Shown here one piece after another: positions 43,485 through 52,993 of a stretch of 64,000 nt of DNA (its first letter is position 1; each line of letters begins with the position of its first letter). Both the position numbers and the translations under genes were made by a program. The stretch comes from Lepraria neglecta. Its lineage: Eukaryota > Ascomycota > Lecanoromycetes > Lecanorales > Stereocaulaceae. The notes beneath the pieces are model-generated. The model did no database searches. It was given only the letters and a program-made list of their open reading frames with translations, and was not told the DNA's origin. The stretch is taken from the NCBI GenBank assembly GCA_033220425.1, contig CM065648.1:3968001-4032000 (forward strand). The letters are read 5' to 3'.

Positions 43485-45185
43485 ATGGATAGGCGTCATC
43501 GTCCTTTTCGTGATCCCTACCGCGGTCAACCTGACAGAGACGACGGGTACGAGTATTATAATATTTACGACAGACAGGGCGGGATCCCAGGATCAGCGCG
43601 CCAGCCACCACCAAGAGCATTCGGTCCTCTGCCATCACGACGCCCTCAAGCATCACGGCCAGGTCTTCCACCACCACTGTTTGATGATAGACCACCACCT
43701 TCGAATGCTAGGGCCCTTCGAGAAGCCAACCCGACTCTATCTGGTGGCTCTGGAGCTGGACGTCGTACAGCAGACCCCTTGCCTAGGGCTGAGAGCTCTG
43801 GCGTTCAAGCCGGCCCATCTCGAACAGCGACGCACAGAGACCGTAATGAACGTGGCACTACTGGTCATCGTCAAACTGACCATCCTCGAACACAACCATC
43901 TAATGCCAAAAAACCGGGCGCAGGCTCGTCTCAGGTTCCGGGAAACAGGCCTGTGGAACCTCGTCGAGAATCGCGTAATGAGAGGACCCCGGTGGTGGCC
44001 CCATCTCGAGCTGAGGGAAAAAAGCCTGCAAAACCTCGCCAAGAACCAAATAACGACAGGGATCCTGACATGGGCCCGTATGGAGCCAGAAGAACACAAC
44101 CTGTTGACGACGACCGCGTGCGTGAAGACGTCGCGATAGCTCAGAGATTCGCTCAGCAATATCAGCAGCAATATGAGCAAGAACAAGAAGAAGAAAATCT
44201 CAGACTGATACAGAGACTACAACTAGAGGACCGGCCTCGTGAACGTCATGGGCCGGGACCATCTGGGTGGAGAGCATATGATGAAATACCCAGAGTATCA
44301 AAGGAACTTGGAAACACAAAGGGAAAGAGAAAGGCTAGGACTGAGCCTGAACCTGAGCTTAAGCCCAAGCCCAAGCCCACGCCCAAACGAGATTGTATCA
44401 TTTGCATGGACTCGTTCGATACCTCTGAACTGCTCTCTCCCTGCGAGATGAGCAGGCAACACTATTATTGCAACGATTGCTTGACACGTAAGTTCTTGCA
44501 ATGTCTCACTCACTGTGAGCTTGAAGTTGACTATGCTTCTTAAAAAAACAGGAGGATTGAAGAATATCAAAATACCTCTTGTCTGCTGCAACCCCACCCG
44601 ATCGATAAACATCGATTTGGTCGCTAGAGATTTAGACCCGGCTGTGGTGAAGGATTACAGAAACATAATCCTCGAGTATAACTCAAAGGATAAGTTTTAC
44701 TGCGGCGATAAGGAATGCTCCGCGTTCATACCGCCTGGCAAGGTTGACCGGAACGACGAAGGTGTTTGCGACAAATGTGGGAAGCGTACTTGTCGGAAAT
44801 GCAGAGCCATAGCACATCCAGGTAAGCATGCCATTTACTCTCTTTCCATAATACCAATGACAATGCTGACTCCGAGATCTTGCTAGGTAAGCGCTGCAAG
44901 AAAGATCTTGAAGCAGAAAAAGTCAAGAAACTGGCCCAGGAACGGGGCTGGAAACAATGCCCCGACTGCAAAGAGATGATTGCAAGACTAGAGGGATGTT
45001 GGCACATGAAAGTTGGTCATTCGATTCCCAAATCATGTTATATGAGGAATGCTGACCCGGAAGTCGTATAGTGCCCGAGCTGTGGTGCAGATTTCTGCTT
45101 CCGGTGCGGCAAAAAAGACTGCGATACGCAGCTCTGTTTGCCGCCTGCAGAGCGTTACGCAATGCCCGACCCCTTTGATATCTAA
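43485..45185 (+). CDS. RBR E3 ubiquitin ligase 1 (proximal IBR-RING2 isoform)
   Basis: Four exons (43485-44487, 44552-44821, 44887-45011, 45072-45185) give 503 residues. RBR ligases transfer ubiquitin through a thioester on a RING2 cysteine. The first about 215 residues are disordered and rich in Arg, Pro and Gln, then a Glu/Gln-rich helix (IAQRFAQQYQQQYEQEQEEE). RING1 is CIICMDSFDTSE...CEMSRQHYYCNDCL, the IBR has FYCGDKECSAFIPP and CDKCGKRTCRKCRAIAHPG, and RING2 has CPDCKEMIARLEGCWHMKC, with the predicted catalytic Cys in the GC pair, then CGADFCFRCGKKDC. The intron after HMK falls right behind the catalytic Cys. Directly downstream lies a second copy of the last two domains in the same splice phase, so this gene may have two alternative 3' ends. 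Target proteins are unknown; the site is probably cytosolic. Confidence 0.88.
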
Positions 45186-45269
45186 GGTAACTGTGAAGAA
45201 GTCTTCTTATTGTTATGCAGGGGCTGATTTGATTTGAGAAGGGACATGCTGACTCCAAACCCTCGATAG

Positions 45270-45837
45270 GTAAGCGCTGCAAGAAAGACACTGAAGCAGA
45301 AAAAGTAAAGGAACTGGGAAAGGACAATGGTTGGAGACAATGCCCCGGCTGTCGAACTATGATCTCAAGAGACAGTGGCTGCGGTCAGCTACCCTTTGGA
45401 GTCCTTCTTCACTCTTTGACAGCCCCATTTGAGTCAATCGACATATTTCAAGGGCTGGAAAAGCTTTCCGGCTCCTGGGAAATGTCTAGAAGCTCAAGGT
45501 CTGTATTCAAAAAATAATGCTGACCTCGACATGTTGTAGATCATATTAAATGTCACGAATGTGGCAAAGACTTCTGTTACAACTGCGGCGGGCATGACCC
45601 GGACTGTGGGCCAGTATGTGAAAAGGCCCCGAGCATTGGTTTCCACCACCGCCAACGGCATTCCCACAGCCCGATTATGCAACACCGCAATTTGGAAATC
45701 AACAGCCCAGATTTGCACCACAGCCAATGGGATTTCAACGGCCCGGGTTTGCACAACCACAATTTGGAGTTCAACAGCCCAGATTTGCACCACAGCCAAT
45801 GGGATTTCCACAACAAGGACAGTGGTGGCCGCACTGA
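45270..45837 (+). CDS. Duplicated distal IBR-RING2 exon set of RBR ligase 1
   Basis: Three exons (45270-45383, 45540-45613, 45670-45837) repeat the end of the preceding gene. The first begins with GTAAGCGCTGCAAGAAAGA, the same bases and phase as the proximal exon at 44887. It encodes KRCKKDTEAEKVKELGKDNG and CPGCRTMISRDSGC, then DHIKCHECGKDFCYNCGGHD, so the catalytic GC and the zinc ligands are kept. A 56-nt GTATGT...CCACAG intron leads to a 55-residue Pro/Gln tail with two near-copies of QPRFAPQPMGF. It has no start codon or RING1 of its own. Joined to exons 1-2 of the preceding gene (phase 1 to phase 1) it would give 542 residues. It could instead be a dead duplicate. Other open frames over the repeat tail are by-products of its periodicity. 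Confidence 0.65.
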
Positions 45838-48416
45838 TATGCGTGATTTGCCGGAACATACTTTCATAGCGATTGCTGAGAATATTGTCTAGACGAACGG
45901 ATGAAGAATTTAGGCTTGATGAGTAGGTAGTTCATGCGAATCCTTTACGTGAGCAAGACCTGCTTTGTAGCCAATGCGGAAGATCTTAGATTCAGATCCC
46001 AATCCAAACAAATTTGTCAAACGAGACTGCAAGCTTGCTTGAACATTTCGATGTTAGAAGATTACCTGCCACAACCAAGGCTTATTTTCTCATGATAAAC
46101 CGACCCACCTTATCATTCTTCTTCGCGCCTTTGCTTTTGGTGATTGTATCTCATGTTGATGATTTTGAAAGCTGGAATTGCGCCGAAAAGTTGGCAAGTT
46201 CGACGCTCCTTATTGCTGTCAAATCTCATGTTTCCGGCTCCTCGCCATTAGGAGAATGCCTTGGATTTTCAAATGACGAAGTTTCAGTATCCAATTTTCC
46301 CGCTCCTCACTGTTCAAACCCGGGATGTTTCAAACTCAGGGTATGGTTCAAAACGCCCTGAATTTTCGACTGGTGGAGTTTTGTTCTCCCAAAAACAAGC
46401 TTGCAAAGAGCCTCGTTCCAGCTCTTCTTGTCACGGCCAGTTATACCGGCCGGGACTCTCCATCCAGTCTGATCGAACACGCTCCAGGCCATTGTATGAA
46501 ATACTTGAGCTGCAGCTCGAATCTTATACCATTTTGCTATTGTTTCAGGGCTTCCTGTCTGAGCATGATGGAGGACCATCAGGAAGTAAGTTCCAAGGAG
46601 CAAAGTAAGGACCTGCTGGCAGCAGCAGCAGTCTCGGCAGCGTGGTCCAGCTGTGTCAAGAGGATAACATGAGTGAGAAGTGACAACGTACGCTGGCTTT
46701 GCAGTCTTCCGAGCGAATTGGTAATGTGGAATACGATCCTTGTATGCATCATTTCGATATTTCGCCTAGGTGGCGAGGTCGTGGTCTCTGTTTCGTTTGC
46801 CAACAGCAATGCTCCTTCGAATATAAAATGCCATCTTCATAGCAGCGTGCGTAGTTCCCGGGCACATCCTTAGTCCTCTTGTGTCCAGGTGCTTTACACA
46901 AATCAGAGAAAGTCCACTGCCCTTACTTGAGGATCTTGCTGGTAGCGGTAAGGCAATTTTTTGAGGATGTCATTGAGATTCTTCTTAGCGAATTTATCGT
47001 CTTGGGTGTTTTGAAAGAACTTTGCAGTGCACCGCTGGTCCAGTTCTGGGTGTTTTAATGCCAGTAGAATGCCTTGCATAGTTATCCTTAGAATGCTCTC
47101 CGAGCTCTTGACCGTCGGTGGAGAAATGTCGAAGTTCAGTGTAGCGGATTTATCGACCATTGTCCAGGGTTTCCGTGTTGGCGTATCACTAATGAAGAGT
47201 GTCAAAGCCAGGACCCACCCACCACATGGGGGATCGGACTCTAAGTCGTTGAAAAGTAATCTATATATATAACGTCTGGGAGCAGAGTTCGCGACAAAAT
47301 ATATGTCTTGAGAGCAGGAGAAAGGCCACAGAAGGACATATGAAGCTGTTCCAGAGCAGATTCGATGCCAAACGATACATCTCAGGAGCAGAGAATAGAC
47401 GGTTTGGGAAGTAACAGTCCTGTAGAATGATTGCACGTTGACTCGGAATAGACCTCAGGCAGTCCTTTTAAGATGGAATAAGATCTACGTTTCTGGACCT
47501 TTTGGCAAAAAATGGGCCGAATCCTGACCTTGTGGATGGCATATTAAGCCACGATAGTTTCTCTATGCGCTCCAACAGATCCTGCTTTGGTCCAAAATCC
47601 TGGTTCATTGCTCTTCGTTTTGTGATAGGATGGAGGTCAGCGGAGCTTAAGTTTGATAAAAATCCGAGGTGATACCCCTCAACTGTGATGATATCAACAC
47701 AATGTTTTGTCATGTTTAGCTAAGATTTATGGTGATTGCTCCGCGCAAGGTACTGCCTAGTGGACTGTCCCAAGTCAACTTGGTCAGTCTTCTCGTCCGG
47801 CCTTGGGCGAATATGTCGTGTCGATGGGTTAGCAAATCACGTTGTCATGCTGTGCTTTGAGTCACAGAGAGATTAATGTAATTTGAATCCACAACGGCGT
47901 ACTCCAGGTTGACTTTCTCTTCAGTGACGGCAGTCTGCCCGGAACGCAGGGATGATTCCCGGGACTAGAGCCTCGCTAGACCTCATTTGGGAGCCATTTT
48001 CAGGGGTCAGAGTCCAAGTGTCAGCGAGACGTCAAAAAGTCAATTGCAATGACGATCGACTATGACTGACTTTGGAGATCATACACCAGACATATGCCCT
48101 GACAAAACCATTATCGAGACTCAATCCATCCCCAGGAAGCTGATTTGCTGCCACTATGATGTTCTGGACCCTGAGAGTGGGGGTCCTGCTGCCTCCCGCG
48201 TCATGGAAGGGTCCAGGCATTTGTGTTAACGGTATTAAGCAAAGTGCCAAGTTGACCTCTGACTCCGAAACGCAACGAGGCTACGGTGATGTTGTTCTCC
48301 ATGACGACCAAACGGGCAATCTCAAAGCCTAAGTACCTCTTGGGCGCTGAGTGCAGCAAGGACTGTGTGGCGGAAATCCTTGTCCCCCACACCCATGCTC
48401 ATGGGAATTGTTTGAC
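45838..48416. other. 2.6-kb stretch without a supported gene
   Basis: Several open frames exist, but none was recognised. The longest is a minus-strand frame at 46903-47436 (177 residues; its second half, including ESILRITMQGILLALKHPELD, looks protein-like) with another minus frame at 47468-47713. They might be exons of one decayed or lineage-specific gene. A minus frame at 46307-46603 (98 residues, containing a WYKIRAAAQVFHTMAWSVFD stretch) is also unplaced. The part 47740-48350 looks non-coding. Confidence 0.35.
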
Positions 48417-51161
48417 ATGGAAGACCTTCAGACCAAGGGCGTGCTCCTAGATTCGATCGAGACCCACCGCAACCACCTCCTCTCCGAAGAAGAGCAACGT
48501 ATCAGTTCCTTCAGAAAAGGCAAATTGCCAGCCACGGAGCAGGATGAGGAGCGGGAGGCCCAGCTTGAGAAGCAATTGAAAGATCTAGCAGACAACTATA
48601 AATCCATCAGCGAGAATGCGGCTACCAGGCGGCGGGACAGTGCCAGAGGGGCACATGTTGAGAGAATATCTTTGGTTTCCTGTCGGGATTGGCCATTGGG
48701 AGCGCAGTCGAATGTCATACAAGAGAGTCTTGAATCGTCATCTGAGGATGATGAGCCTCTATGGAATCCATTGACGAACTCTTATGCTCACAGAGAGACT
48801 GGCTTCGAACCTGGACCGTCCAATTCAAGGTATCAATCGTATACCCCGCAAAGCAGTGAAGATGACTATCATGACATTTTTGAGACTCTGGTAAGCTTCC
48901 GTCCCAGGGCCAATACTCCAGTGACTAAGACAGGATGCTAACTTCATACTTTAGACAGCAGATTCACCACCCTCGCAAGGGAGCCATACCTCATCAAGCA
49001 CTTCGCCCCACCCTATAAGGCCCACAGACACCGGACTCAGTGATCATGAAAGAGAAGGCCCCGCAGCTCCACCAGCGAGTACACGCCTGGGAAGGTTTTC
49101 ACTTAATAATTTCATGTCGTGGATGAGTCCAAGAGTGAAAGGAGCCGTTTGGAGAGGAAAGTCATCTGATACACCTCCAGACAAGCTGGGCCCAGCTCCA
49201 GCAAGGGAAGAACGAGAGCGTTCTAATGGTAGTAGTAAGTCGCAAATGCCACTATCACATGCGAGCCGCTTGAAGAAAAGTCCTACACACATGAGGAGGC
49301 CAAAACCCCATGATCAACTCGATGATACGTACTTCATGCATGGTGCCCTCTCTACAGGAACGCCGAAGACTTCATATGATGGATTCACGCCCGACACAAG
49401 ATCATCTAGCGACTCCAGCAAGTCAGCGGCCCTGCTTGAATCCAGAAGCATCGATCGCTCCTTGGTTGGATCGACTGGTACGGACTCGAGCCAGTCTAGC
49501 GACGAACCTGCAACGGATCCAAGTGCACAAAGTTCCCAGGCAAGGGCTTCCCGGGGAACTGCAAGCGAGAAGAGGGCGAACGATGATGTTGCCAACGACA
49601 TGAGCTTAGAAGAAGAATCATCTGCAAGCTCGAGTGATGATAGTCAAGAAAGCGCTAGGGAGGAAAATAATTTTGAGGCTTCGCGTCGTGAGGCTATACG
49701 TCTAGAGTCCTTATTCAGACAGCAGGAACAAGACCGTGAGCTGGCAGAGCGTCTAGCTCGCGATGAGGACTTGGCGACCTCACTTCAGGATCTTGAAATT
49801 CGCAATGACGAGTCTTCCACCTTGTTGGCCATCAACCTTGCAAATGGCTTCGTCCAGGATCAGGGTGCTTTTGCCCTTCATCAACTCGAGGAACAGGAAA
49901 TGGCACTTCAATTCCAGAATGCGGTCAGTATGCAAGAAATACAGCTGCAAGCGGATATGGAGTTCGCTATGCGACTACAGAACGAGTCGTCCATGCTGGA
50001 GAGTGATCGCAATCTTGCGCAGAGACTTCAGTCAGGGTCCAGCACACCAGACTCTAGCATGGCGATGGGTTTCGATGACACCTACCAATCTGTCGTTCCT
50101 GAGACTCCTTTCCCGCAACGAGCAGACGAAGGCTTCGAAAATCCGGTACGTACCCCTCACTCGGTCTTCAGCAATCCTTTCTCTTCTGCTTTCGCTTCTC
50201 GAACACAGCCCATGCATTCACAACCGCGCTCATCGCGTCAATCGGGAATGGTTGGGGCTAAGACTCAGCAGCGTAAAGGAAATCAGAGTAATCAACCAGG
50301 ACAAGCGTGGAGAGGACAAGGGTGGAAAAGACAGGAGTGGCAAGGACAGGAGTGGCAAGGACAAGAGCAGAATGATTCAGCAGATATCTCATTTCTTCAA
50401 AAAATCCAGCAAGAAGAAGACCAAAGATTTGTACGAGATCGGGCTGAGGCCCAAAGGATGCAAATCACATTGCAAGCTCAGGACAGGGTTGCACAGGACA
50501 AAATCAAGGCGGAACAAGCGGCGATCAAACGAGAAGAATTCGCTGAGTGCCTCATCTGCACTGATGATTTTGACAGAGCCGAAATGGTGCGGCCGTGCGG
50601 ACATTGGTATTGTCGAGGGTGTCTGACAGGTATGAACCCCTATCTTTGGGGACTAGACCGTGTGCTGATTCCATTCATGCAACAGGAGCGTTCCGTAATG
50701 CCTACAATTCGAAGCCGAGGAAGCCTTTCCGGTGTTGTAAACGTGATTTATCCGTTGATCTCGTGGCGCGGGAGCTTGGAGCAGCATTCGTACGGGACTA
50801 TAAAGCCTCCGAGCTGGAGAGATCCACGCCAAACCCACTATACTGCAGTAATAAGGACTGTGCAGGGTTCCTACCGCCTGCCGATATTCATGGAGATAAT
50901 GGCACTTGCAGCAAATGTAGGAGTCAGACCTGCCGCCACTGTCGCTCCAGAGCACATCCTGGGAAGTTGTGCAGTAAAGACAAGGATACCGAAAAGGTCA
51001 AGGCACTGGCCAGTAAGCAGGGCTGGAAACCTTGCCCGGGTTGTTCGCATATGATCATGAGGAACGAAGGCTGTCTCCATATGACGTGCTCGCAGTGTCG
51101 TACGGAGTTCTGCTATAATTGTGGCTCAAGGAGTTGTAAACAGACGTGTACGAGAAGGTGA
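48417..51161 (+). CDS. RBR E3 ubiquitin ligase 2, long N-terminal region
   Basis: Three exons (48417-48890, 48955-50629, 50686-51161) give 874 residues. The start MEDLQTKG was chosen because sequence before it in frame does not look coding. Residues 1-320 are disordered and Ser rich. From about 350 to 480 there are repeated charged helices with a D/E-x-x-L-A-x-R-L-Q pattern (DRELAERLARDEDLATSLQ, DMEFAMRLQNES, DRNLAQRLQSG), which resemble ubiquitin-interacting motifs. A QEWQGQEWQGQE repeat follows. The RBR module is at the C-terminus: RING1 CLICTDDFDRAE...CGHWYCRGCL, then IBR LYCSNKDCAGFLPP and CSKCRSQTCRHCRSRAHPG. RING2 is CPGCSHMIMRNEGCLHMTC with catalytic Cys, then CRTEFCYNCG. The end is Cys/Arg rich. 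It shares the phase-1 intron after RING1 with the two neighbouring ligases but has no intron in RING2. Confidence 0.9.
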
Positions 51162-51573: not shown

Positions 51574-52993
51574 TCATCTTTGACAACCGCCATGACACCT
51601 CGTATAGAGGGCCCCGCAACCATAGCAAAATTGGGTACCACACCGACACTGGGACATCACGGAGTTAGCATTCATCATCAACACCTATGCAGTAGAGACA
51701 TGTCTCATGACTCGAGAAATAGCATCGACTGTGAAATGGTTAAATAGAAAAGTGCCTTACTGTCATGTGCAAGCACCCACTAGATTTCTCGACCATGTTG
51801 GTACAACTTGGACATGCTCTCCAGCCTTGTGCTGTCGCTAGGGCCCTTGCTTGTTGTGTCCCAACGTCTGCTGGGCACTCGGTTCCTGGATGAGACCTGT
51901 TTCGACAATGTCGACACGTGGCCGTTCTACAATGAGAGCACTGCATAGTGTCTGGGCCACTCGCCTGTGAAGGAGGGATGAACCTAGTACAAGATCGATT
52001 GGAGCAATACACCGCGTTGGGAGTTGAGAGCTCGAGGACTAGGTCGCTATAGCGGTCACGGAAGTCGTCCTCGAAAAGACCTAGCACATCTTCTATTGGT
52101 ATGGCCGTCTGACAACATTGGAACGGCGTTCGAGACTCCAATCCAACCTGGAAGGCGCCTAGGAATAATAATCAGCTTGTGGTGTTCGCTGGCTGAATGG
52201 CTCTGGCTTTCTTACTTTGGAGATCTTCCCGACAATACCAGTGCCCACATGGCGCCTCAATCATGGCCCACATGTCACCGGATTCAAGACAAACGGTACA
52301 TTCTCTTTCGAGGTCTCTCCTCCTCCGTTCCGCCTCTTCTGCCTCCCTTCGCCTGCGCTCTTCTTCGGCAGCCAGCTGAGCTCGTCTAGCTGCTACGGCT
52401 TCTTCTCTTGCCCTTTGCTGTTCTTCCAAATCAATCCGTCGCTGTTCTGCCTCTGCAGCAAGCCTTGCTCGACGACTCGCCGTTCGTTCCTCTTGCACTC
52501 TGTAGTATGCTTTCGACTCTTCCCTTATGATTTGCTCCCGCTCTTCTCTGTCCTGCAGGAAGAGCTCTCGCCTGGTCGTCTCACGATGGCGGGATTGATC
52601 GACGTTTCCGTCATACCATGCATCCTGCTTCCTACGGGACGTCTGCGCCCTCTCCTGAAGCTGCTCGTCATAATAGTTGGTCCAGAAGCCAGCACGGTCA
52701 TCTTCTGGTAATTCCTGTGCTGCTAAATTACGGGCTAGCTCGAAGTCGCGGCTCAGTTGCTGGTCTGGCACACCAGCCTGATACAGCCGATCACGTCCAT
52801 GCGAATTGCTATTGCTTGTCGAGCTTAGAGGCGGATCTCTTCTTGTCGCCCCGACATGTGCCATGCTGCTGAGTCCAAAGGCGGCATTTCTGGCCGATCT
52901 GTGGGAAGCACTGCTGCTCTTTCGGGCCACACGCCTGCTCTCAGATTTGCGGCCAATAGAGCTGTATGGATCTCGCGGCGGCAACGTCGTCAT
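51574..52993 (-). CDS. RBR E3 ubiquitin ligase 3, coiled-coil type
   Basis: Three exons (52993-52216, 52158-51761, 51648-51574) give 416 residues. The N-terminal 90 residues are Ser/Arg rich, then FELARNLAAQELPEDDRAGF and a long Arg/Glu/Ala coiled coil (EEQQRAREEAVAARRAQL and EEERRRREAEEAERRRRD) running up to RING1. RING1 is CTVCLESGDMWAMIEAPCGH then WYCREDL, which keeps only part of the usual ligand set at its end. The IBR has VYCSNRSCTRFIPP and CSHCRTATCRHCRNRSHPG. RING2 is CPSCTNMVEKSSGCLHMT joined across an intron to CRCGTQFCYGCG, with catalytic Cys in GC. The introns after RING1 (phase 1) and after HMT match those of ligase 1. It is convergent to ligase 2 and probably an older duplicate. 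Its function is protein ubiquitylation; substrates are unknown. Confidence 0.88.

Follow-up and report, generated by a model that had tools for sequence, protein, structure and literature searches.

Two tandem, in-phase RING2 cassettes behind a single RING1-IBR half in a predicted RBR ubiquitin ligase gene of Lepraria neglecta

The window analysed here, the whole 64,000-nt stretch at positions 3,968,001 to 4,032,000 of Lepraria neglecta contig CM065648.1 (assembly GCA_033220425.1), contains a gene, here called gene A, in which one RING1-IBR half is followed by two consecutive RING2 cassettes, a proximal one (P) and a distal one (D), all on the forward strand. All splice sites and intron positions reported below were deduced from the sequence alone. 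Exon 1 (43485-44487), with its predicted start codon, encodes most of RING1 (CIICMDSF...CNDCL) after an N-terminal region of low complexity, and ends in phase 1 directly before GTAAGT. Intron 1 (44488-44551) is followed by exon 2 (44552-44821), which encodes the post-RING1 region and most of the IBR and ends in phase 1 with CCA G, such that the exon/intron junction at 44821 reads CCA G|GTAAGC. The next intron, I2 (44822-44886), is located at HPG|K, has AGGTAAGC at each end and carries ATGCTGAC at 44863-44870. It leads into the first exon of cassette P (44887-45011), which encodes the end of the IBR and RING2 as far as HMK, with a catalytic-type GC-W-H. A predicted phase 0 intron (45012-45071), after HMK and before a Cys, separates this exon from the last one (45072-45185), which contains the remainder of RING2 and a short tail terminated by TAA at 45183-45185. 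The cassette translates as GKRCKK...CPDC...GCWHMK|CPSCGADFCFRC...C...C.

Gene A joined to P displays RING1, IBR and RING2 in the order that defines RBR E3 ligases, and its predicted RING2 has GC-W-H plus eight further Cys, corresponding to a catalytic Cys, the following His and eight zinc ligands, roles that we presume to be as in parkin. The Pfam IBR model matched the joined protein ending in P in two stretches with 49.0 bits (cut-off 24.3). RING1 scored weakly in Pfam (zf-C3HC4_2, 19.6 bits in the form ending in P and 19.7 bits in that ending in D, below the cut-off of 27), yet it aligns with RING1 of two neighbouring paralogues, B and C. A phmmer comparison of cassette P with PDB sequences gave no match at E 0.01. 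We take gene A to encode a putative RBR-type E3 ubiquitin ligase and to belong to a small RBR gene cluster. Just upstream of this cluster lies an NPHP3_N (NACHT-like) domain (PF24883, 41423-42220, forward strand), and elsewhere the window holds an OTT_1508-like deaminase domain (PF14441, 2494-4032, forward strand) and a domain of the endonuclease-reverse transcriptase type (PF14529, 4070-5149, reverse strand), as in LINE-like retroelements.

Like the first exon of cassette P, with which it shares homology, the opening exon of cassette D (45270-45383) encodes the end of the IBR and RING2, here as far as GC-(G). Its predicted RING2 intron (45384-45539; GTCAGC...ATGCTGAC...GTAG) lies in phase 1 inside GC-D-H, and the last exon, read straight, spans 45540-45892 (DHIKCHECGKDFCYNC...C...C, followed by a 90-residue tail and TAG at 45890-45892), giving GKRCKK...CPGC...GCDHIKCHECGKDFCYNC...C...C. 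In this straight reading, the RING2 of gene A joined to D has GC-D-H plus eight further Cys, a predicted full set of catalytic Cys, His and zinc ligands. The joined protein ending in D scored 50.8 bits with the Pfam IBR model, and each cassette alone exceeded the same cut-off of 24.3 (34.0 bits for P and 34.8 for D), in agreement with the initial annotation, made from the sequence of this stretch, that each set codes for the end of the IBR plus a complete RING2 with the GC pair. Beyond that annotation, both cassettes are interrupted by a predicted intron of their own, at differing positions (after HMK in P, inside GC-D-H in D). RING2 of D matched those of parkin and Ariadne-1 over GC-x-H (four PDB sequences, E 0.001 to 0.008), with GC-D-H where the matched sequences show GC-M-H or GC-N-H. 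No RING1 for D was found, nor any in-frame ATG between the preceding stop and its GKRCKK, as the initial annotation had also remarked; the 5' part is thus missing, as in a truncated pseudogene, and D was ruled out as an independent gene.

The tail of D can be read in more than one way. It contains 36-nt repeats (45640-45819, forward strand) that are Pro/Gln/Phe-rich in a frame shifted from that of RING2. The end at 45837 originally assigned to D sits in a different frame, accessible only through an extra weak intron; the straight reading ends at the TAG at 45890-45892. An optional tail intron, at its shortest 45614-45669 (56 nt), would produce a Pro-rich tail and remove the last RING2 Cys; no good branch point was seen for it. 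By codon use, the tail scored +1.4 in the frame of RING2, -1.7 in the Pro-rich one and -4.4 in the third, values that do not settle its frame, and the second RING2 exon of D scored -2.0 in its own frame versus +0.8 in another. Since the repeats make a sensible Pro-rich sequence only in the shifted frame, a frameshift may have occurred before them.

GTAAGCGCTGCAAGAAAGA follows directly on the first acceptor of either cassette (intron ends 44886 and 45269) and has two matches in the window when up to three mismatches are allowed, both of them exact (0.05 expected). This upholds the starting observation that two acceptors of the same phase follow exon 2 (CCA G) and open into the same sequence at 44887 and 45270. 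Around these acceptors P and D are identical at 85/106 nt, intron ends included (E 2e-24). An exact ATGCTGAC stands 14-15 nt from the intron end at 4/4 acceptors of the two cassettes, which are not four independent cases because the first acceptor of D was copied from that of P; ATGCTRAC occurs no more than 30 nt upstream in 15/3654 YAG sites on both strands of the window. The branch-point-like motif is enriched in the window (14 found versus 3.9 expected), in line with a branch-point consensus. The donors read GTAAGC (I2), GTTGGT (P) and GTCAGC (D), the last differing from the usual GTAAGT/GTATGT type. A further GTAACT directly after the P stop opens a candidate intron (45187-45269, forward strand; TAA G|GTAACT...ATGCTGAC...TAG) that would reach the D acceptor in phase, a match expected by chance alone in one case of three, and the frame through it would run ...PFDI stop GKRCKKDTEAEK.... 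P and D thus have the make-up of tandem-duplicated exons, being adjacent and homologous, of the same phase, and equipped with their own acceptors and branch points.

Searching the window with gene A, we found paralogues B and C nearby, two further RBR genes that served as outgroups. The RBR domain of B (50542-51161, forward strand) has one predicted intron (50630-50685) and lacks introns both at HPG|K and within RING2; that of C, followed to its stop (51574-52303, reverse strand), has predicted introns at 52215-52159 and 51760-51649 and none at HPG|K. A predicted phase 1 intron at the end of RING1, at the matching place, is common to A, B and C. The phase 0 RING2 intron position HMx|C is common to P and C, B having no intron there and that of D lying 11 nt upstream in phase 1. 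The HPG|K intron, I2, is found only in gene A among the three, and it is flanked by AGGTAAGC at 44820-44827 and 44885-44892 (four such octamers in the window versus 1.6 expected). Tandem duplication of an AGGT site is described in PMC3443670 as an origin of introns with repeated ends, and the AGGTAAGC copies at both ends of I2 are as would be expected of an intron born in this way. As P and D both carry the I2 acceptor and its branch-point stretch, they probably split after gene A had gained I2. Two features of C are recorded here in their own right. Its RING1 (52303-52216, reverse strand) reads HWYCRED versus HWYCRGC in B, one zinc-ligand Cys seemingly missing. In addition, AATGCTRACTCCGWGAT occurs at 44862-44878 and, on the reverse strand, at 51656-51672, the 3' ends of differently placed introns in A and C; it has two exact matches and four with up to three mismatches versus 0.51 expected, a chance figure that is flattering because the pattern was taken from these two copies.

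Homology between P and D begins at 44863 and 45246, that is, at the branch points, with 45246 located 60 nt past the P stop. A single partial tandem duplication that began within I2 and ended shortly beyond the stop would produce this layout. For closer comparison we used a codon alignment made by hand from the translations, with 61 columns, 58 of which have letters in P, D, B and C. P and D agree at 58/72 nt over codons 1-24 versus 62/105 over codons 25-61 (Fisher p 0.003), and the breakpoint in similarity was also seen by best-breakpoint permutation (p 0.001 by site, 0.036 by codon); given the greater likeness of the first part, gene conversion may have acted there. Over codons 25-61, D agrees with B at 59/105 nt, such that its RING2 is nearly as distant from P as from B, leaving room for an older origin.

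P and D differ at 57/177 nt, and D has changed no faster than P. Over the 58 codons, polarisation with B as the outgroup assigned 20 nucleotide differences to D only and 18 to P only, with 16 ambiguous, and polarisation with C assigned 17, 20 and 17, respectively; the corresponding amino-acid counts were 4, 3 and 14 with B, and 2, 3 and 16 with C. D retains 20/22 of the sites at which P, B and C all agree, including 10/10 Cys/His sites, six of them with a codon unlike that of P, and in its RING2 we found no stop, no frameshift, no zinc-site damage and no faster amino-acid change than in P. When neutral evolution was simulated from P, with 2000 runs for each of d 0.15, 0.18 and 0.20, all ten sites survived and no stop arose in 0.8, 0.3 and 0.4% of the runs, respectively; the share was 4.1% for d 0.10 and 20.6% for d 0.05. 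With D's half of the P-D divergence at about 0.16 uncorrected, decay throughout is unlikely and death late in its history is possible. The earlier remark that preserved zinc ligands and frame would be surprising in a dead copy is supported, for a copy dead from the start, by the ten kept sites, the symmetric rates and the 0.3-0.8% of neutral runs.

Rate estimates for this stretch varied with the method. For the P-D pair, the only one for which NG86 dS was obtained, NG86 gave dN 0.325 and dS 1.12 and YN00 gave 0.41 and 0.49, a disagreement due to the stretch being short and saturated. A four-taxon branch codon model, subject to the same shortness and saturation, yielded omega 0.71 for D (p 0.85 against 1) and 0.35 for P (p 0.33), with p 0.23 for D against a common value, and so rejected neutrality (omega 1) for neither cassette. 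The codon model alone thus gives no verdict on whether D has been dead since the duplication, a case that we judged unlikely from the rate symmetry and the kept sites. On these same two lines of evidence, and not on the codon model, D was probably not dead from birth, and constraint probably acted on it over much of its history.

Created by such a duplication, D would at no time have possessed its own RING1 or start, and service as an alternative 3' terminal cassette of gene A might best account for its preservation; we tentatively place this reading narrowly ahead of its nearest rival. According to this proposal, D would have arisen as a second in-phase catalytic 3' end downstream of P when a stretch reaching from I2, just upstream of the branch point, to just beyond the stop was duplicated in tandem. 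The usual transcript would join 44821 to 44887, as the nearer acceptor should win, and a minor transcript would join 44821 to 45270, retaining the same RING1/IBR half with a different RING2 and tail. The latter junction would require a 448-nt intron that bypasses the nearer, intact P acceptor. Base pairing in the RNA that could loop out P did not go beyond chance (500 shuffles, p 0.154; fold z -0.94), and pairing across P was unexceptional in that 20% of other window stretches pair equally well. Another route might be offered by the cassettes themselves, as P and D both begin with GTAAGC right after AG, and joining exon 2 to P would recreate the donor AG|GTAAGC. A second splicing step from the rebuilt donor to 45270, past the nearer acceptor, is therefore possible in principle; that such re-splicing acts as a switch, removing the whole of P, joining D and so swapping the catalytic RING2 behind an unchanged RING1/IBR half, we consider distinctly improbable.

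The proximity of A to B and C, paralogues that the initial annotation had not taken into account, indicates that tandem full copies are a local habit. The recent beheading of a tandem gene must therefore be taken seriously as an alternative, one that we rank close behind in probability and regard as quite possible. D would then be the 3' stump of a former full-length copy, A2, that was functional until its promoter, RING1 and start were recently deleted. The missing start codon, the possible frameshift ahead of the tail repeats and the near-equal distance of D from P and B over codons 25-61 all agree with such a history, and after a neutral change as small as d 0.05 the cassette would often still look intact. 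However, this account requires two events, with a deletion that starts no more than 60 nt from the P stop and ends in the intronic stretch of about 40 nt that precedes the branch point, and that is recent enough to have left no stop or zinc-site damage in RING2.

D might also serve only as the 3' UTR of the P transcript, either unspliced or spliced from the donor after the P TAA to the D acceptor, in which case any effect would be on mRNA stability and not on protein. The arrangement of TAA G|GTAACT, ATGCTGAC and the D acceptor is in keeping with this possibility, as is the situation in Schizophyllum commune, where, according to PMC5034255, exon skipping accounts for 1% of coding-region events, mutually exclusive exons are called in 171 genes, and both types fall mostly in UTRs. 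We nevertheless consider a purely untranslated role unlikely, as it leaves unexplained both the kept zinc sites and an amino-acid change no faster than that of P. Very unlikely, finally, is an assembly error in which two separate genomic copies were united through a collapsed repeat, since the copies are at most 80% alike, and 59% alike in codons 25-61, presumably too different to collapse easily.

Fungal precedents bear on how unusual the use of D as an alternative ending would be. In PMC5294800, mutually exclusive 3' UTRs, of the alternative-last-exon type, are among the event types validated by RT-PCR in Verticillium dahliae; together with the S. commune data, these results indicate that mutually exclusive and skipped exons exist in fungi and are uncommon in coding sequence. 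Among the titles and abstract openings of the matches listed for mutually exclusive or duplicated exons, fungal RBR proteins, RBR isoforms and intron gain, a scope outside which most subscription papers fall, we found no description of two RING2 cassettes in one gene. A search for loci related to the D form gave none in viral contigs and 0/52 confirmed pattern matches in genome contigs; by their descriptions, the two collections cover viruses, bacteria and archaea and no fungi.

If D is used, one gene would give rise to two ligases that have a common RING1/IBR half and differ in their catalytic domain, providing a natural domain swap with which to ask what RING2 itself contributes to linkage, substrate reach and autoinhibition. 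Such use would also give duplicated terminal exons a coding role in a fungus, for a class of events reported mainly in UTRs (PMC5034255). If D is instead a recent stump, three things would still be on record at this one locus: a partial duplication, the occurrence of AGGTAAGC at either end of an intron, and a shift in intron position.

Compared with known systems, gene A resembles Ariadne-1/HHARI and parkin in its RING1, IBR, RING2 order and in a RING2 built of CxxC, GC-x-H, CxxC and CxxC, but differs from them in placing two tandem RING2 cassettes behind one RING1-IBR. P and D resemble alternatively spliced tandem-duplicated exons in being neighbouring homologues that share a phase and follow one upstream exon, but differ in that each unit is predicted to consist of two exons and to form a terminal cassette ending in a stop of its own. 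Finally, as with truncated tandem duplicates in gene clusters, paralogues adjoin and D is devoid of its 5' part, yet, in contrast to such remnants, its RING2 shows no stop and no loss of zinc sites, and its splice signals are present.
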